50,014 bases of DNA from a virus. The translations under genes and the position numbers were made by a program. The stretch covers positions 1 to 50,014 of IMG/VR virus record IMGVR_UViG_3300027834_000009; one strand, given 5' to 3'. This document shows, piece after piece, positions 11,002 through 28,363 of this stretch. A model generated the notes under the pieces. The model was not told the origin of the DNA. It worked only from the letters and a program-made list of their open reading frames with translations, and made no database searches. Positions within the stretch are counted from its first letter, which is position 1. Each line of letters starts with the position of its first letter.

Positions 11002-11287
11002 ATTTTTCACCTAGTTTATAAAGTTTTTGACCGAAAGTGGTTAGCGGATAGTTAGCCCTATTACCATTTTGGTAAAATTCAACGGCTAATGCTCGCAGTT
11101 CTTCCAGCTCAGAGGTGTCCACCTCGTCGCTATTCGCTATTGCCTGCTTAAAATCTGCTATATTCTCAAAGTCATTCTCACTAGAGCAATGTGGGCAATT
11201 TTCATTCCACCACTCAAGCCCAATGGTTGCAGTCTGTAGTGCAACTCGCAAATTAAAAACCATAGATTTTAGTACTGTCTCTCTCAT
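10973..11287 (-). CDS. Unknown early protein with one CxxC pair
   Basis: 104 residues; WWNENCPHCSSEN near residue 30 gives a single C-x2-C pair, with acidic helices before and after (ADFKQAIANSDEVDTSELEEL split across the middle). The C-terminus overlaps the next gene by 29 bases. The family is not recognised; a metal-binding or redox role is possible but unsupported by a second Cys pair. Confidence 0.55.
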   Translation of the reverse strand: MRETVLKSMVFNLRVALQTATIGLEWWNENCPHCSSENDFENIADFKQAIANSDEVDTSELEELRALAVEFYQNGNRANYPLTTFGQKLYKLGEKYDDENSGIS

Positions 11288-11556
11288 CGCTGTCTACCTT
11301 TAAAGTTGTTTTGAAATTTAACCCAGCTTTTCTGCTTGAGCTTTTTCTCGTCAGTGGTTGCGGTCGCTACTTCTAAGCTCTCTAACTCATTAATACTGGC
11401 GAACTTTACGCGACCATTGATAGCAACGCTAAGTTGTTTCACAGCCCCCACAACTTCGATACCCGCCTCTCTTAATTTAACAATAGTTGCGTTTATCTCT
11501 GCTGCTCGAGACTTACCCACGCACCGAGGTGCCATCGTGATTTTAATTTTAGTCAT
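11284..11556 (-). CDS. Unknown small early protein
   Basis: 90 residues, basic at both ends. It has a MAPRCVGKSRAAEINATIV segment near the start (G-K-S without a full P-loop) and a basic C-terminus (KKLKQKSWVKFQNNFKGRQR). I do not recognise it. It overlaps the upstream gene by 1 base and the downstream gene by 4, in the promoter B operon. Confidence 0.5.
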   Translation of the reverse strand: MTKIKITMAPRCVGKSRAAEINATIVKLREAGIEVVGAVKQLSVAINGRVKFASINELESLEVATATTDEKKLKQKSWVKFQNNFKGRQR

Positions 11557-11795
11557 TAGTGGCCCCTTGGGTGCAGGTCACCGATGATCACTGTGACATT
11601 ATCGAGGAAAATTTTAGTTTGTATTTCGTTACGTTCTTCAGTGAGCATGTGACAAGCGGTTCTAAGTGCAGTTGTAACAAGTGATTCTTGAGTGAGTAGC
11701 ATTCCACACAAAAATTCATATTGCAGGTCACTAAGTGGATCACCAGCATTACCCATTGTTGCCGCAAGTTTGGCTAGCATTTCATTAGCGTTCAT
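11556..11795 (-). CDS. Unknown small early protein
   Basis: 79 residues, helical: EMLAKLAATMGNAGDPLSDL, then LCGMLLTQESLVTTALRTAC, ending DLHPRGH. No motif recognised. It overlaps the gene before it by 11 bases and ends one base into the next start codon. Confidence 0.5.
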   Translation of the reverse strand: MNANEMLAKLAATMGNAGDPLSDLQYEFLCGMLLTQESLVTTALRTACHMLTEERNEIQTKIFLDNVTVIIGDLHPRGH

Positions 11796-12042
11796 TAGCG
11801 TTAGCCTTACAAATTTCAGCGATAGTTTCTAGTCGGTCTTGCTTTCGACGTTCCTTAGATTTGTCTCTAGTTGCCTTTCGACGTTCCTGTATGCGTCGGT
11901 CTTCGCTCTGACTCATTACCCATTTCAGCTCTGCTGCGGCTGCTGTATCACCAAGTTTTGCGGCCTCCCTCAGTTCCTTAATTAGGTCTATATCAGCCAT
12001 TAAAGACTCACCAAAAATACTATTCATGTTAAAGTTTTCCAT
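11785..12042 (-). CDS. Unknown charged helical protein, first gene of the promoter B operon
   Basis: The C-terminal half is extremely charged and arginine-rich (SEDRRIQERRKATRDKSKER), resembling a coiled or nucleic-acid-binding helix. I place the start at ATG 12042, since an upstream in-frame TTG at 12090 lies inside the -35 box of promoter B and cannot be in the transcript. ATG 12000 (MADIDLIKELREAAKLGD) has a better GGTGAG ribosome site and may be the true start. Function unknown. Confidence 0.5.
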   Translation of the reverse strand: MENFNMNSIFGESLMADIDLIKELREAAKLGDTAAAAELKWVMSQSEDRRIQERRKATRDKSKERRKQDRLETIAEICKANANER

Positions 12043-12061
12043 TTCTCGTTGATTTAACCCG

Positions 12062-12090
12062 ACTATAGTGCAATGGTTGCGTAGTGTCAA
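12062..12090 (-). promoter_or_regulatory. Early promoter B with embedded palindromic operator
   Basis: Minus strand TTGACA (12085-12090), 17-bp spacer with GCAACCATTGC, and TATAGT (12062-12067). The upstream gene's stop codon abuts the -35 box. It drives genes 12042 to 10052. Confidence 0.85.
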
Positions 12091-12366
12091 CTAATAAAAC
12101 ACAGCTGGTTGTAAATAATCGTAAGCCAGGCTCGGGTCAATTTTTTTGACAAAAGGTCTCATATCATCAAGTAATTTCTTAGTGCATCGATACCGATGGT
12201 CACCGACGATACTTTTACCAATGGTTCGGTAGATAGTTCTAAGCTCATCATCATTATTAATGACTATTCGAGTGCGAAACCGCTGCAAGAGCTCGTCTAG
12301 TTGTGGCTCGCATAATGCAATATGGTCTAGATAGTCTGATGATGCTTTAATTTTAATAGGGTACAT
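12091..12366 (-). CDS. Unknown early protein
   Basis: 91 residues, basic: YPIKIKASSDYLDHIALCEP, an LLQRFRTRIVINNDDELRTI segment and KSIVGDHRYRCTKKLLDDM. No family recognised. It lies between a hairpin terminator and promoter B and has no clear promoter of its own, so it probably depends on read-through from the operon upstream. Confidence 0.5.
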   Translation of the reverse strand: MYPIKIKASSDYLDHIALCEPQLDELLQRFRTRIVINNDDELRTIYRTIGKSIVGDHRYRCTKKLLDDMRPFVKKIDPSLAYDYLQPAVFY

Positions 12367-12393
12367 TTTAATTAATTCTTGTTATTTGAAGGA

Positions 12394-12416
12394 AAGGCCC
12401 CTAATTAGGAGGCCTT
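12394..12416 (-). terminator. Hairpin terminator after the secreted-peptide gene
   Basis: AAGGCC (12394-12399) and GGCCTT (12411-12416) pair, with a second palindrome CCTAATTAGG inside. On the minus strand TTTCCTTC follows, a weak T-tract, so termination may be partial. Confidence 0.55.
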
Positions 12417-12434
12417 CTTAAGTGTTATTAATAT

Positions 12435-12689
12435 TTACCTGTAAAAAGTCAGTGATGCAAAGTCACCAGACGGACGACAACCCCGATCGCCCTCACAAAT
12501 TTTGCAATTTTTACCGTCTTTATCACAAAATTTACCTTTCGGTTCTTTTGGTCTACCCTCATTGATAACATTAAATACGCCTGGAATGGTGCTAGATACG
12601 CTAATGCTAGTGTTCACACTTGCCTGAACGGGCATGATAAACACCATGAACAAAGCGATAATAATCAAAGTGGCTAATTTTCTAAACAT
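12435..12689 (-). CDS. Small secreted cysteine-rich protein
   Basis: 84 residues with a clear signal peptide: FRKLA followed by a hydrophobic core (TLIIIALFMVFIMP) and a VQA-S cleavage site near residue 23. The mature part of about 60 residues has four Cys in a compact segment (FCDKDGKNCKICEGDRGC), likely paired as disulfides in the periplasm. TTAGGAG stands seven bases before the ATG, one of the best ribosome sites in the block. A terminator follows. Such a protein could act at the cell envelope (exclusion of other phages, inhibition of host enzymes), but that is inference. Family not recognised. Confidence 0.65.
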   Translation of the reverse strand: MFRKLATLIIIALFMVFIMPVQASVNTSISVSSTIPGVFNVINEGRPKEPKGKFCDKDGKNCKICEGDRGCRPSGDFASLTFYR

Positions 12690-12743
12690 AGTTTTCTCCT
12701 AATTTGCCGTCAGAATCCGGTGACGACTTCCGGTTGTTGTTTG

Positions 12744-13163
12744 TTAATATCTCGTACTCTGTAGAATCTTTGCAATAGCACAGAGTGTTTGATGTGCTGC
12801 CTCTTCCGTTTTAAAGAAATTTCCTTGATTGAAATGATTCATGTCTACAGGATCGTCATCGAAAGGCATATCCATTACATCATGGCTGCTAAATATCCAA
12901 TATTTATCACCAATTTTAGGTTTTTCGCTCATTGGCGCTATACACTCAATACCGTTGATAGTGTATGTTTTAGACTCTATTGAGTAGTTTTCTGCTGCAT
13001 CGTTAAATGTGAAATATTCAAAACTATTGTCCGAACTAGTTACCTTTTCACCCCTGCCGAATGCCTTCATAAATTCAATGCACTCAGGATTGAATCGTGG
13101 AAAGATTACTTTCACTTCATCACCATCAAGTACGCTTAGTACTCTTGCTTGTTCTCTGTTCAT
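12744..13163 (-). CDS. Unknown phage protein, 139 residues
   Basis: The C-terminal half has a recurring phage pattern: KIGDKYWIF, then an acidic stretch, then NQGNFFKTEEAAHQTL (GN-x-F-x-T-x-E-x-A). This is found in many small phage proteins of unknown function. The N-terminus (RVLSVLDGDEVKVI) looks like a short beta domain. It begins right after the AATAAAAA junction that ends the preceding NHKE-type gene, which supplies its ribosome site. Confidence 0.55.
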   Translation of the reverse strand: MNREQARVLSVLDGDEVKVIFPRFNPECIEFMKAFGRGEKVTSSDNSFEYFTFNDAAENYSIESKTYTINGIECIAPMSEKPKIGDKYWIFSSHDVMDMPFDDDPVDMNHFNQGNFFKTEEAAHQTLCAIAKILQSTRY

Positions 13164-13166
13164 TTT

Positions 13167-13502
13167 TTATTCTTTATGGTTGGTTAGTAGTTTTTCGAAA
13201 GAATTAACCACTTGTTTCATTAGCTCGAATTGTATTTTAGCCTCAAACCTTATTGAGTTGCACACCTCACTAGTAGTCGCTGTTTTATATTCGTCCCGAA
13301 CTGCTTTGAATTTATGAAAGAGTAAAAGCGCATCTTCCTTGGGTATCGACTCAGCTAGCTTAGCCTCGAGATACTCCTCCCTTTCCATCTGTACGCTGAT
13401 ATATATTATTTGCGCTAAAATGTCTTTTTTAGAGGCCCTTAGCTTTTTCTCTAGCTCGTTGATTCTGGCACTGTTGTCTGTAAATGTGTCATGTTCACTC
13501 AT
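13167..13502 (-). CDS. Coiled-coil early protein, NHKE-tail paralogue 1
   Basis: 111 residues, mostly helical. ARINELEKKLRASKKD near the start, AKLAESIPKEDALLLF in the middle and LEKLL-type ending (FEKLLTNHKE). The same blocks (RINELDKDL, AKLAESIPKKD, LEKLLSNHKE) occur in the protein at 15309-15734, so the two are paralogues with different fillers. The final NHKE codons form the repeated gene-junction sequence whose AAAGAA serves the next gene. Function unknown. Confidence 0.6.
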   Translation of the reverse strand: MSEHDTFTDNSARINELEKKLRASKKDILAQIIYISVQMEREEYLEAKLAESIPKEDALLLFHKFKAVRDEYKTATTSEVCNSIRFEAKIQFELMKQVVNSFEKLLTNHKE

Positions 13503-17172: not shown

Positions 17173-18138
17173 CTACTTTTTAAATACTGGTAATTCTTCT
17201 AGTTCTAAATATTTGTCTGTAAGTTTTTCGACTGTCGTGTAATTTCTATAGAGCGTTCGAGGCAGCTTTGAGTATTCACCGTTAATTTTATTGCCTCCTA
17301 CGTGTCCGTATTCCTTTTCAAGCATGTCTGGAAATTCAAAAATACCTGGGTCATTATCCATGATGGTAAGTAGCTTTTTCTCGCACTTTTTGAAGCACCA
17401 AGCGCAGTTACCTTGGTAATCTTCAATACCTAAATCGAACGTCATCGACTTCCAATAATCCCTGATCATTTGTTGTGTCATAGGCACATGGTCTGCCAAA
17501 GGATAGAATTTATTTTGCCAATTTTTATTACGATTGAGCCGCTTGGGTTCGTCACCACGGATACCGATAGCTGTGTGGTAGGTGCCTTTTTCCCACCCGA
17601 TGACCTTCTGTACGTAATGGTGAATAGGGTTCTCTTTAAGCTCTCGCGAGCAGTGTGGGTATGCTTTATTTGGCACCCCATATTTTTTGACCACATCAAG
17701 GTATGGGCCATCAAACCTACTACTCCTTGTAGCGCTCTCGTAATCAACCAGCTCTGATGTGGAAGCAATCCGACCAGCCCAGACACACGCCTCAACCCAT
17801 GCTGTATTGAGTTTGAAGTATTGGTCCACCTCGTCCATAAATTCTAAAGTCTCGTCCATCTCTTGCCCAGTATTAGCAAATACGAATCGAACGTCATAGA
17901 TTGCGGAGTCATAGTATTGCTTTGCCCAACCAGCCATGAAGCAAGAACTACGACCACCACTGACAGTGATGAGTATTTTTTCTCGCGGTAGTTCGTCGAC
18001 ACTAATACCAGTTATACTACAAGCTTGGGATGCAATCTCTAACGTTTCACTTATGGGCTTGTCACTACAGTCCTCGTAATGTCGAACCCTATAGACAAAA
18101 TTGCCCATACTCGTGATTTCGTAATTTCCGACTAGCAT
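17173..18138 (-). CDS. PAPS-reductase-like PP-loop protein (adenine nucleotide alpha hydrolase family)
   Basis: The PP-loop ILITVSGGRSSCFMA lies near residues 55-70. Later come FVFANTGQEMDETLEF, CSRELKENPIHHYV, a IGIRGDEPKR motif and a cysteine cluster GNCAWCFKKCEKK (about 243-255). This is the layout of phage PAPS-reductase-family proteins, which activate or reduce sulfur compounds or modify nucleotides and are distant relatives of CysH and DndC. The actual substrate is unknown, and no other Dnd genes are seen. GAGG eight bases before ATG 18138; it overlaps the preceding gene by 7 bases. Confidence 0.8.
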   Translation of the reverse strand: MLVGNYEITSMGNFVYRVRHYEDCSDKPISETLEIASQACSITGISVDELPREKILITVSGGRSSCFMAGWAKQYYDSAIYDVRFVFANTGQEMDETLEFMDEVDQYFKLNTAWVEACVWAGRIASTSELVDYESATRSSRFDGPYLDVVKKYGVPNKAYPHCSRELKENPIHHYVQKVIGWEKGTYHTAIGIRGDEPKRLNRNKNWQNKFYPLADHVPMTQQMIRDYWKSMTFDLGIEDYQGNCAWCFKKCEKKLLTIMDNDPGIFEFPDMLEKEYGHVGGNKINGEYSKLPRTLYRNYTTVEKLTDKYLELEELPVFKK

Positions 18139-22743: not shown

Positions 22744-23067
22744 TTGCTGGATTAGTTGAATTTAAAGGGCTGTAGAGAATTAACAGTTACTACAGTTAGT
22801 TTGTATATATATAAAGAAGTAATACATACATAAAGTATAACATAATACAGGTGTTGTCAATGTAATACTTTACGTACCGATCACCTAGTAGTAAGTTTTG
22901 GAAAGTAACTGTTGGTAAAAAAAGGGTGTTTTCCCGTTTAAAATCAATAGCTTGGCGTAACAGCATGCAGTAATTGCGTAACTGGTAACTGTGGCTGTAG
23001 TGTCTCGCTGTAGTGTGTCGCTGTAGAGCGCTGTGGTGTGTAGCGTGTAGGGGCTGTAAGAAAAACA

Positions 23068-23102
23068 CTACTGACATCCTACTGACATTTATATGCTATG
23101 AT
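23068..23102 (+). promoter_or_regulatory. Possible extended -10 promoter for the late block
   Basis: TGCTATGAT (extended -10) ends at 23102, preceded by a tandem CTACTGACAT repeat (23068-23077 and 23079-23088). Neither TGACA copy is at the normal 17-bp spacing, so recognition would rely on the extended -10 or an activator bound at the repeat. It lies 67 bp before the first late reading frame. Confidence 0.4.
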
Positions 23103-24575: not shown

Positions 24576-25493
24576 ATGGCACTGGTACCAGTAGTAACCA
24601 GCCTGCCGACGCCCCCTAATTTAATTTACAACGTCTATGACTCGCTTGACATTGTAGCCGATGCATCGTTTTTAGTAGAAAACTACACCATTGGCCCAGT
24701 TATTAATCTCGGTGCTTTCACTAACATATCAGGCGTTTACTACAATAAATTTACTCATCGCGTCGGGTTCATCCAGAACAACACCGGTTTAATTTACGAA
24801 TTTACCTATGCTGCACTTAAGGCTGCAACTATCGCCGTGCCTCCAGTACTATTACGCACTATCACACTAGCAGGGCTTGACGGTGATGACACCGAGGGAT
24901 GCAGCAACATAGTGCATAACTACCTCGAAGGCGGTTTTGAGAATTGGGTGTGTGACGAGAACGGCGGGGCTAATCGCGTGTACAATTTGCCTTGGACATT
25001 TGACGAAATGTTTAGCACTGCTGATGTCACCATCACTGCGAGACAGCGCCTAACTATGGCAGCTAATGCCAGTCCCAATGAGGGTACAGAGGGCGTCTCG
25101 ATGAATAAATGGACGCAAGATATCGACAGTGTCCAAGAGGGTGGTGTTAGTCCCCAAGTGTACCGTCGAGCTGTACGCCCTACGAACCGAGACACTAGTT
25201 ACACATTCACGGACCCTGAACTTGTGGTCACAAATCCATTTGATTCAAGCACATTAGCGGGTGATCAGTCTGACGTAACCATTCACCACGGTACAGGTCA
25301 CAGCTTGATATTGTCGGACACAGCGAATGCACTAAATCAAGTAACTACTGACGGACTAAACACTCTAGTCTCCACGCTAAACCTTGGCGCTACATTTGAT
25401 CAGCCTGAGGGTTTTTGCCAAACCATAGGGCTTGAAGGTATCATTGCGAGCGAAACCGATTCATTCGCATTCTTGACATACGTGACACCATAA
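24576..25493 (+). CDS. SdiA-regulated-like beta-propeller protein
   Basis: Blade-like repeats fit SdiA-regulated domains: INLGAFTNISGVYYNKFTHR (xxLSGVxYNPxT), then LLRTITLAGLDGDDTEGCSN, EGTEGVSMNKW and, near the end, QSDVTIHHGTGHSLILSD and FDQPEGFCQTIGLEGI. Propellers of this type bind ligands such as sugars or proteins. Beside the fibre genes it is probably a virion or receptor-binding component; that is inference. Length 305 is normal. It abuts the next gene at TAATG. Confidence 0.65.
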   Translation: MALVPVVTSLPTPPNLIYNVYDSLDIVADASFLVENYTIGPVINLGAFTNISGVYYNKFTHRVGFIQNNTGLIYEFTYAALKAATIAVPPVLLRTITLAGLDGDDTEGCSNIVHNYLEGGFENWVCDENGGANRVYNLPWTFDEMFSTADVTITARQRLTMAANASPNEGTEGVSMNKWTQDIDSVQEGGVSPQVYRRAVRPTNRDTSYTFTDPELVVTNPFDSSTLAGDQSDVTIHHGTGHSLILSDTANALNQVTTDGLNTLVSTLNLGATFDQPEGFCQTIGLEGIIASETDSFAFLTYVTP

Positions 25494-28018
25494 TGGCCCT
25501 AATCCTAACCCCTATCGCTGAAACTACTAACAACACTCTCGCGGTGGTTGATGGTGTGGGTAATCGGTACATCGGATACTCTATCCATCCTAATGAATCG
25601 AACGCTCAAAGAGACCTAACTGACGTTACACTGGGAGGGGTAAGTGCAGCGGCTGTGCTGGTCAATGAGCCAATCAGCGGCAATCAATTGTCAGTTTTTT
25701 ATGCATATTTTCTAGAAGCGCAGATTGCTGCTAGAGTTAGTGATGTATTTGTCCCGGTCTGGGCTGCGGCTCCTCCTAGCGTTAAAGTTTACGCCTTTCA
25801 GGTTGATGGTGAGGTAGACCAGTTAGCGCCCCATAACGGGGCTGCACAAGTTGTTAGTAATCCAGGCGGACCAATAGCGCCGGTAGACCTACCATCAGTA
25901 AGCGTACTCGATGGCGGCCTTGCTTTCGAATTCGCAGCCTCAGGTACTGGAGGCACAACATTTACTTGGGTTGATTTTACTCAACTAAGTACTAACGGTG
26001 CTGGAGGATTCACTACAGCTACCGCAATGCAAGCCGTACCAGCTGCGGCCAGTATTACAGCTGAATATTCAGCTACCGCTAATCGATCATCGTTAATGCT
26101 GTTATCAATCAGTGAAGCGGGAGATACAAACCCATCAGTATCTAATGTGGCCAGCGGTGCGGGAGACATATCACCGGGTGATGTATCAGTACCCATAGAT
26201 GGTACAAATTTTGAAGCGTTACAAGGGACGGGTATAGTCACGTTCAGCCCAACGGATGATATCACCGACGTACTTAGGGTGGAGGTATCGACCGTCACAG
26301 CCTGGGCAGCAACACAAGTTAGTGTGACTATCCCAGATCCGTTAAGTCTACTGTACGATAATATTTTCGTATTCGTTACAAATAATACGGGCGACTCAAA
26401 CGCTAACGGGTTCCAGATAGCTTTAACTCCTAAGGTTGGAGTAGCTTATACTCGCATCGCTTTTCAACACCCTGACGGAATACTAGCGGGTGTCGCGGGT
26501 GTCGAGCTTGGCGTTGACCAAATAGAATATTCTACAACCACACCAGGTGGCGGTACGGTGGTGTTAGGACCATCGGGTACTTATGAGGTTTTCGGGTATG
26601 TAGGGGCTCCAGTTAGTCAGGATACTTTCACTTATCGATTAGGTGACCAAACTGACCAGACATGGAGCGCCGAAACCACATTCACCATTGGTGCTGAAAC
26701 TGGCACCGGTACAGCTGATACCACCTCTAATTCTGATATCGTTGCGGCTGGTCAAAAGGATACAAGTAGTGACGCGAGTCATTCAAGCACGTCCACATTG
26801 GCCGTAGGTGCTCAAAAAGACACATCGGGGGCCGCGAATACTACCAGTAACTCAAATATCGCAGCAGTAGGCTCTAAGGCTGGCAGTGAGGCTGCAAACA
26901 CCACTAGTAATTCCGATATCGTTGCGGCTGGTACCAAGGCTGGCAATAGTGCCGTCGATACTACCTCTAATTCCGATATCGTTGCGGCTGGTACCAAGGC
27001 TGGCAATAGTGCTGTAAACCTTACTAGTAATTCAACAATTACGGCTATTGGCACATCATCAACCGCCGCCACCGGTACGGCTGACACTACCTCTAATTCT
27101 GATATCGTTGCGGCTGGTACCAAAGATACGAGCAGTGATGTCAGTCATTCAAGTACGTCCGATATCAATGCAGCTGCTGATAAAGACACGACCGGCGCGG
27201 CTGATACTCTTAGTAATTCTGATATCGTTGCTGATGGCACCAAAGATACGAGCAGTGACGCCGGTCATTCGAGTCTATCCGATATTACAGTGGTTAGTGA
27301 TAGAGCCAATGATGGTGTAGTCGATGCTACCTCTAATTCTGATATCAATGCTCAAGGAGATAAAGCGTCCAATAGTGACGCCGGTCATTCAAGCACGTCC
27401 GATATCATCGCTGATGGGCAAAAAGATACGAGCAGCATTGCCGACCACTCGTCGGTAAGCTCAATCACAGTAATAGGTGTAGCGTCTACTCCCGGCGGTG
27501 GTTCGGCAAACACTCTTAGTAATTCCGATATCGTTGCAGCTGGCACTAAGGACGTACCGGGCGCAGTTGATGCCTCGAGTCAATCTGATGTTGTGGCCAT
27601 AGGTGCGCGTAGTTCTAGTGGTGTTTCAGACACTTCTAGTTTGTCAAACATCACCGCCACCGGGCAAAAAGGGGCTAGTAGTGCCGCAGATTTAGCAAGC
27701 CAATCAGACCTACAAGCTACCGGTGAGGGTGTTCTACCAGATGAGGGAGTGGCTAACACTTCCAGCTTGAGTACAGTAACAGCCATAGGTCGTAAATCTT
27801 CTACCGGTGCGGCCAACCACTCGTCAGTAAGTTCAATCACAGCGATAGGCTTAAAGAACGCATCCAGTGCCGCAGACCTATCAAGTGTGTCAAATATCAC
27901 CATTCTGTCAGGATCTCAAGTACTTCCAGATATAGATCCTGATTTAATTATGTTAGAATCATTAACTATGCCGGTACAAATAGAATCTGTACCGTCAACA
28001 CAACTACTAAGAGGGTAG
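25493..28018 (+). CDS. Large repeat-bearing tail fibre or surface protein
   Basis: 841 residues. N-terminal part (1-205): beta-rich, with GGTTFTWVDFTQLSTNG. Residues about 210-310: an Ig-like/IPT domain (VPIDGTNFEALQGTGIVTF, then an SVTIPDPL strand). Residues 315-405: a second beta domain (GTYEVFGYVG...TWSAETTF). Residues 408-809: twenty 20-residue repeats. A short acidic C-terminus follows with LPDIDPDLIMLESL. The protein has no Cys-rich or catalytic motif. It lies in the lysis/fibre region, so a tail fibre or adhesin is likely. The repeats probably form a long rod; which end binds the virion is unknown. Confidence 0.7.
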   Translation: MALILTPIAETTNNTLAVVDGVGNRYIGYSIHPNESNAQRDLTDVTLGGVSAAAVLVNEPISGNQLSVFYAYFLEAQIAARVSDVFVPVWAAAPPSVKVYAFQVDGEVDQLAPHNGAAQVVSNPGGPIAPVDLPSVSVLDGGLAFEFAASGTGGTTFTWVDFTQLSTNGAGGFTTATAMQAVPAAASITAEYSATANRSSLMLLSISEAGDTNPSVSNVASGAGDISPGDVSVPIDGTNFEALQGTGIVTFSPTDDITDVLRVEVSTVTAWAATQVSVTIPDPLSLLYDNIFVFVTNNTGDSNANGFQIALTPKVGVAYTRIAFQHPDGILAGVAGVELGVDQIEYSTTTPGGGTVVLGPSGTYEVFGYVGAPVSQDTFTYRLGDQTDQTWSAETTFTIGAETGTGTADTTSNSDIVAAGQKDTSSDASHSSTSTLAVGAQKDTSGAANTTSNSNIAAVGSKAGSEAANTTSNSDIVAAGTKAGNSAVDTTSNSDIVAAGTKAGNSAVNLTSNSTITAIGTSSTAATGTADTTSNSDIVAAGTKDTSSDVSHSSTSDINAAADKDTTGAADTLSNSDIVADGTKDTSSDAGHSSLSDITVVSDRANDGVVDATSNSDINAQGDKASNSDAGHSSTSDIIADGQKDTSSIADHSSVSSITVIGVASTPGGGSANTLSNSDIVAAGTKDVPGAVDASSQSDVVAIGARSSSGVSDTSSLSNITATGQKGASSAADLASQSDLQATGEGVLPDEGVANTSSLSTVTAIGRKSSTGAANHSSVSSITAIGLKNASSAADLSSVSNITILSGSQVLPDIDPDLIMLESLTMPVQIESVPSTQLLRG
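26714..27919 (+). repeat. Twenty tandem 60-bp (20-residue) repeats within the fibre gene
   Basis: Consensus A-[DN]-x-[ST]-S-x-S-[DN]-I-x-A-x-G-x-K-x-[ST]-S-x-[AD]. Copies 6, 13 and 17 are 22 residues (two extra codons); the last is cut to 16. At DNA level copies 1, 4, 5 and 7 are nearly identical over about 30 bases (AATTCCGATATCGTTGCGGC), so unequal exchange or slippage has acted recently. The alternating small/polar pattern suits a beta-solenoid rod. Confidence 0.92.
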
Positions 28019-28024
28019 ATAATC

Positions 28025-28363
28025 ATGGCTTTAAACGCAGATGCGCACAACGTACTATTGGGCGCTTTGGATATCACACAAGTATCATTGCATACCGCAG
28101 CACCTGGTGTTGGTGGTCTAGCAAATGAGGTTACAGGCGGTACTTATGCGAGACAAAACATCACTTATGCGGCGGCTGCGGCTGAAGCACGAGCGGCAAG
28201 CAACCAACCCGTATTTGATGTACCCGCAGCTACCACCGTAGCATTTGTCGGATTTTGGGCTGTAGCGGCTTATCGGGGTGATGTTGATGTGGTCGACGAG
28301 GTATTTGGTGGTGCTGGTACTTACACTATCACTAGCTCGACGGTATCATTAGCGGCTGCATAA
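28025..28363 (+). CDS. Phage tail-fibre-type structural protein
   Basis: 112 residues with the pattern of a widespread short phage structural family: LNADAHNVLLGAL, VSLHTAAPG, NEVTGGTYARQNITYA and NQPVFDVPAATTVAFVGFWA. Often labelled minor tail or tail fibre protein. It is beta-rich and lacks Cys. AGGG stands before the ATG. The position directly after the long fibre gene suggests a fibre or tip component. Confidence 0.7.
   Translation: MALNADAHNVLLGALDITQVSLHTAAPGVGGLANEVTGGTYARQNITYAAAAAEARAASNQPVFDVPAATTVAFVGFWAVAAYRGDVDVVDEVFGGAGTYTITSSTVSLAAA

Follow-up and report, generated by a model that had tools for sequence, protein, structure and literature searches.

What does an array of 20-residue repeats do in a phage protein whose family no profile library names? 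The array discussed here lies in a virus record of 50,014 bases, analysed over its whole length and called the window below. The record belongs to a contractile-tail phage: PHROGs profiles recognise terminase, portal, major capsid protein, sheath, tape measure and baseplate hub in it. The repeat gene (Table 1) shares one overlapping base with the gene of a SdiA-regulated-like protein, whose relatives were looked for in viral_contigs without any being found, and is separated by 7 bases from a downstream gene of family PF23140. The product of the gene that follows next has no profile match in Pfam or PHROGs. Elsewhere in the window, a perfect 12-base tandem repeat, GGTGCTACTTGA, is present in 5.5 copies at positions 164-229, three short tandem arrays with periods of 13, 23 and 11 (22994-23088) sit between the genes that run leftward and the structural block that runs rightward, and the minus strand carries a phosphoadenosine phosphosulfate reductase-like gene (17173-18138), an auxiliary metabolic gene.

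Table 1. The repeat gene, its parts and its neighbours (positions in the window)
Feature	Position	Strand	Basis
SdiA-regulated-like protein (PF06977), 305 aa	24576..25493	+	Pfam E 5.9e-7, exceeds curated cut-off
Repeat protein, 841 aa, proposed fibre spine	25493..28018	+	Open reading frame and repeat array
Non-repetitive N-terminal half, residues 1-405	25493..26707	+	Best lag identity 0.10, no profile match
Repeat array, 19 full units and a partial 20th, residues 412-805	26726..27907	+	S-x-S anchoring, lag identity
Unit 6, 22 residues	27026..27091	+	Unit anchoring
Unit 13, 22 residues	27452..27517	+	Unit anchoring
Unit 17, 22 residues	27698..27763	+	Unit anchoring
Non-repetitive C-terminal tail, 36 residues	27908..28015	+	Unit anchoring
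Gp80-family protein, 112 aa, proposed bead	28025..28363	+	PF23140 E 4.7e-9, exceeds cut-off; phrog_240 E 2.3e-12
Third gene of the set, 123 aa	28365..28736	+	Position only; Ig-like by eye, possibly equivalent to LSH1 gp36

Units of the array were delimited by anchoring on S-x-S. The full ones start at residues 412, 432, 452, 472, 492, 512, 534, 554, 574, 594, 614, 634, 654, 676, 696, 716, 736, 758 and 778, and a partial one starts at 798. An earlier note, made from the sequence, had counted twenty 20-residue repeats; the repeat is real and was placed correctly, its number being 19 full units and a partial 20th. The note's 22-residue exceptions at copies 6, 13 and 17, with all others at 20, are exactly so, and in all three of them K11 is lost and the two extra residues fall into the variable part of the unit. 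The exceptions had also been called phased, which does not hold, as they follow each other at an irregular spacing of 7 and then 4 units. Between residues 406 and 815, identity at lag 20 is 0.374, compared with a maximum of 0.186 at any lag from 2 to 61 in 2,000 shuffles; the repeat protein has its best lag at 20 (z 12.2). Two open reading frames antisense to the array (26812-27123 and 27580-27903, both minus) were put down to the repeat itself and discarded.

The consensus reads S-x-S-[DN]-I-x-A-x-G-x-K; the nine residues after it are more variable. Both S1 and S3 occur in 19/19 units, A7 and G9 in 16/19, I5 in 15/19 and K11 in 14/19; positions 1, 3, 5, 7, 9 and 11 have a mean entropy of 0.62 bits, versus 2.20 for positions 2, 4, 6, 8 and 10. 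Both serines are retained through both the AGY and the TCN codon families, and close pairs of copies differ at synonymous and nonsynonymous sites with pS 0.50 and pN 0.18. As far as sequence can tell, such fixed alternate positions are what a beta-strand under selection, with one constant face, would show. The composition of the 410 residues is dominated by serine (86), alanine (63), threonine (50) and aspartate (42), with few bulky hydrophobic residues. At the DNA level the closest pairs of units are 1-7, 4-5 and 7-9 (85%) and 1-9 (76%), and Tandem Repeats Finder reports a two-unit period across units 7-11. From the close copies 1/7/9 and 4/5 and this two-unit period it follows that units were duplicated both singly and in pairs. 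Close pairs thus exist among copies 1, 4, 5 and 7, whose DNA had been described as near-identical; copy 9 belongs with them, the best identity of 85% still means about 9 differences per 60 bases, and copies 1 and 4 agree at only 66%.

Direct relatives are scarce. The window protein has no match in Pfam, PHROGs, NCBIfam, PDB or annotated phages and plasmids, none of the curated families (Pfam, PHROG, NCBIfam, including repeats of the YadA-head type) matches the repeat significantly, and a PDB sequence search with the repeat gave an unrelated best hit at E 0.18. The remark that no named domain has exactly this repeat was therefore borne out in the profile libraries and the PDB, where no clear match to a characterised repeat family was found either. 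A tblastn search with consensus repeats was likewise without a match, perhaps through low-complexity filtering, and is not evidence of absence from annotated phages. The strict two-copy motif with K11 finds only the window itself in viral_contigs; its two matches in genome_contigs, a non-repetitive Prevotella protein and a stretch antisense to an ordinary Paenibacillus gene, are about the number expected by chance and were rejected. The sole other copy in IMG/VR is one contig (L002/L003, 18,571 bases), 100% identical over the overlap. It begins within the array, at window position 27069, as expected when assembly breaks in a repeat; the search thus gave this contig-cut identical sequence and no isolate with a different copy number.

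Loci of viruses related by capsid or terminase (L004-L141) contain no similar repeat by HMM search; other repeats of 21, 22 and 28 residues occur there. Strict 28-residue repeats of the PVTVAPETAGEI... type, with no assigned role, are found in phage open reading frames of L018 (from 9968, plus strand) and L047. Repeats of 22 residues (LFTNTQTFYSPTV; LDTTPGDYDITGSSPSLL) are seen in L101 (from 13638), L073 (from 9015) and L082 (from 6408), in the latter two after a domain that looks lectin-like; Pseudanabaena phage Pam2 matches the first of these types. Another of the loci, L056, carries a replicative helicase gene, apparently with an in-frame intein (11102-13450, minus).

More distant relatives were sought in IMG/VR with a relaxed motif, [ST]-x-hydrophobic-x-A-x-G, required three times over at a spacing of 20 codons. 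It occurs in at least 120 stretches, nearly all of them tandem-repeat open reading frames, compared with a chance expectation of a few, estimated from the information content of the pattern. Two large subfamilies, 'GSATIAQTSSMTAVGTQIDR' and 'VALTGVSASGAVGTVT', stand out. A second, stricter pattern, to which S1 and A17 were added, gave 62 stretches, including the 'GAATLASTSALTATG' and 'ASAVTAGGKQISHAAA' types. Strictly consecutive motif units in the distant relatives number 3 to 11. The window array has the class motif in register at 20-residue spacing, and an HMM built from the window repeats alone matches two of the loci, L289 (6.5e-9) and L318 (1.5e-7). As the relatives had been picked by the motif, only columns outside it were compared, against permutations of the columns: agreement with the main set was equalled in 199/3000 permutations, a weak signal, and that with the second set in 34/5000, a moderate one. 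No homology is proposed for the 'LTGVSASGAVGTV' subfamily, which has nothing beyond the motif in common with the window (2446/3000 permutations did as well); with the LTGV subfamily the non-motif columns show no agreement in these permutations. On this modest sequence evidence, the window array plausibly belongs, as a divergent member, to a widespread but unnamed class of phage repeats of 20 residues. The 'GSATIAQTSSMTAVGTQIDR' and 'VALTGVSASGAVGTVT' repeats belong to SU10-like viruses and share with the window the period, the motif and an adjoining gene for Gp80 or phrog_644. Other positions of the unit are different, K11 and the serine pair S1/S3 being specific to the window. The SU10-like repeat proteins, mostly 200-500 residues long, begin with a short YG-rich N terminus and end in a W-rich C terminus, unlike the window protein.

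Independent evidence is given by the adjoining genes. Among the matches listed, the 1.5 kb upstream contain a Gp80-type gene (36) or a phrog_644 gene (64) in 100 of 111 metagenomic loci selected by their repeat, although single linkage groups the partner proteins into few clusters, which therefore do not represent 100 independent cases. In the set found with the stricter pattern the figure is 12/17. For background, 138 loci retrieved for different purposes (1.36 Mb) contain 4 Gp80 and 10 phrog_644 matches. Representatives of the neighbours match PF23140, 'Podophage GP4 fiber I protein gp80' (E 7.8e-45), as well as the SU10 adaptor (PF24175) and SU10 capsid protein (PF17236), and one Gp80 representative matches PDB chain 8jou_a (E 1.1e-11). 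An HMM made exclusively from the repeat-gene neighbours of other viruses finds the Gp80-family product of the window with E 1.9e-7. The phrog_644 profile has a short match to Gp80 (hhalign probability 72%), and the family, which takes the place of Gp80 in the larger part of the 111 loci, may be a second family of beads.

Because the 111 loci are not independent, the association was also tested in reverse, in 23 annotated phages chosen only for a Gp80-like gene, with a lag-20 z of at least 3 as the threshold for periodicity. Their hosts come from Pseudomonadota, Mycobacterium, Bacillota and cyanobacteria (among them Burkholderia, Sinorhizobium, Methylophilales, Roseobacter relatives, Caulobacter, Mycobacterium, Psychrobacillus, Sporosarcina, Alicyclobacillus and Microcystis). 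A 20-residue periodicity is present in 8/44 genes adjoining Gp80 and in 1/108 others (Fisher p 2e-4). In about half of the surveyed phages no clear periodic neighbour of Gp80 was seen; the link is common, not universal. As in the window, the repeat gene precedes Gp80 in Lumos and phi1_186018. Two Bacillota phages show the periodicity in the first 125-130 residues of a larger protein, annotated as a DUF2313 baseplate protein or recognisable as one (z 5.6 and 3.8, the restriction to these residues having been made after seeing the sequences). These phages are Psychrobacillus phage PVJ1 and Sporosarcina phage Lietuvens (genes at L333 4402-5427 and L325 4403-5326; DUF2313 is named in the Lietuvens annotation), in which the 20-residue repeats form the N terminus of the baseplate protein next to a Gp80-like gene, an arrangement that suggests a spine fused to its anchor. 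The class of 20-residue repeats accompanies Gp80 genes across phages, and the association of the repeat protein with a fibre is well supported. The description of the window protein as fibre-like thus gains support from its gene neighbourhood.

In the Ralstonia podophage GP4, fibre I is reportedly built of gp80 dimers that an elongated rope protein links together. Its PDB entry, 8JOU, contains 10 gp80 chains. The GP4 protein has been described as a dimer that makes up a fibril joining an adhesin to the tail collar (PMC13243795). In the GP4 relative BcepMigl, gp56 is nearly the same protein as gp80 (E 2.5e-59 to 8jou_a), and the product of the following gene, gp57 (246 residues), has its best lag at 20 (z 3.5) and no match in the PDB. 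The simplest reading, drawn by analogy, is that the 20-residue repeat protein would be the rope of the GP4 type. As in the GP4 arrangement, the Gp80-family gene directly adjoins the repeat gene in the window. The differences are that the window phage has a contractile tail with a sheath, whereas that of GP4 is short, that the repeat gene lies upstream of Gp80 in the window and downstream in the GP4-type arrangement, and that the window protein, with 19-20 units and some 400 residues in its N-terminal half, is much larger than gp57. A bead-chain fibre in a contractile phage has a counterpart in the neck fibres of Anabaena myophage A-1(L), whose beads, unlike those proposed here, are self-linking gp81 trimers without a spine protein (PMC10966104).

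A further parallel is offered by Alishewanella phage LSH1, in which a module of three genes, gp34-gp36, has been described (PMC13243795). Gp34 has a predictable N-terminal domain and a C-terminal part called 'hallucinatory', gp35 matches 8JOU, forms a dimer and always travels with gp34, and gp36 is Ig-like; homologues of gp34 in myoviruses contain poorly predicted stretches, for which the authors had no explanation and guessed at a repetitive motif (PMC13243795). A 20-residue period was expected beforehand in the corresponding protein of the myovirus Slicko01. The protein of 1,843 residues, identified there by size and period, not by alignment to LSH1 gp34, has its best period at 20 with z 8.5, the highest of all long open reading frames in that 50-kb stretch, and the signal is strongest around residues 1050-1400. 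Two positions further on lies a gene for 121 residues with a weak Gp80-type match (E 0.012); no such module was found in the stretch 1-50000 of Slicko01. The order of genes in the LSH1 module is that of the window, with a large protein, a small Gp80-like protein and a small third protein, and the large protein likewise combines a globular N-terminal part with a poorly predictable C-terminal part and, in Slicko01, the period of 20. It differs in its N-terminal domain, a lyase-like beta-helix, and in the sequence of the Slicko01 repeat, which follows a S-T-F-D-V-S-D-I pattern. By analogy, a spine for Gp80 beads could explain the 'hallucinatory' stretch beside the Gp80-like protein of LSH1.

Structure prediction bears on whether the array could stand on its own. 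AlphaFold2 gave a mean pLDDT of 47.7 for residues 404-841 alone and of 45.9 for units 1-6, where two further blocks of the array supplied the alignment; no residue exceeded 70 in either run, and both models show two short strands per unit with a pTM of 0.35. A Foldseek search of BFVD with the low-confidence array model gave no match with E below 0.05 and was treated as meaningless. AlphaFold2 is known to have made beta-solenoids of 36/50 random 20-residue repeats (PMC11795689), so even a confident solenoid model would be weak evidence. That none was obtained despite this bias speaks mildly against a self-standing solenoid without disproving it.

The beta-solenoid rod suggested in the earlier note is accordingly unsupported so far by either run. 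According to it, the array would fold alone, two strands to each 20-residue coil, and hold the N-terminal domains away from the virion; the Gp80-like protein would be a separate part of the fibre. The fixed unit length, the conservation of alternate positions and the two strands per unit in both models agree with such a coil, with which two-residue insertions in one turn would also be compatible. Set against the low confidence of the models (pLDDT 46-48), the few bulky hydrophobic residues and the link to Gp80, which it leaves unexplained, we regard the rod as unlikely.

A disordered linker rich in Ser, Thr and Asp, perhaps glycosylated and needing nothing except length, would account for the low-complexity composition and for the low confidence of both predictions, and is still harder to reconcile with the array: a mere linker would not keep the strict 20/22 spacing, serines 1 and 3 invariant across both codon families, or I5, A7 and G9 in copies that differ at about half their bases, which makes it quite improbable. 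A multivalent adhesin with many weak identical host-binding sites, its length varying by recombination between copies, is the least credible reading, as the variation falls on the linker and even positions and not on one exposed cluster and IMG/VR yielded no copy-number variants (the sole other copy being identical and contig-cut), even though the C-terminal placement behind a large N-terminal region and the internal duplication of one- and two-unit blocks would suit it.

We therefore favour, as the probable explanation, that the array is the extended spine of a bead-chain fibre of the Gp80 type, each unit binding Gp80 subunits. A chain that requires a partner would agree with the low AlphaFold2 confidence obtained when the array was modelled alone. 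Residues 1-405, possibly beta-sandwich and Ig-like by eye and a putative anchor or adhesin part, would form the anchoring or host-facing end of the fibre. The roughly 20 units would be extended segments, each with one alternating beta-strand, S1-x-S3-x-I5-x-A7-x-G9-x-K11, that would dock onto a subunit or dimer of the Gp80-family protein encoded by the next gene, and residues 12-20 would serve as linker to the following unit. In units 6, 13 and 17 the two additional linker residues would shift the spacing and leave the strand intact. Copy number would set the count of beads per fibre, and the window array would be a long spine that offers some 20 binding units at most and bears a head of about 400 residues at its N terminus. 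What the data show is the repeat, its conserved alternate positions, the adjoining PF23140 gene and the recurrent association of 20-residue repeats with Gp80-type genes in phages; the physical binding, the ratio of one unit per bead, the docking of the strand and the rule for length are inferred.

It is possible, though we hold it with less than even confidence, that this is one instance of a general spine-and-bead system in tailed phages. The 20-residue repeat would then act as a ruler that fixes the number of Gp80 beads, and length would evolve by gain and loss of units. The pair would have spread across podo-, sipho- and myophages that infect several bacterial phyla, and its spine would be fused to a variety of anchors, such as beta-sandwich and lectin-like domains, a lyase-like beta-helix or the DUF2313 baseplate protein.

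Many phage genomes encode low-complexity repeat proteins that are unnamed in the libraries and beyond the reach of structure predictors. Tying one class of such repeats to the Gp80 fibre family gives these proteins a concrete, testable role. The repeat is probably the string on which fibre beads are threaded, its copy number may set the length of the fibre, and across a broad range of phages fibre length may be written as a repeat count.
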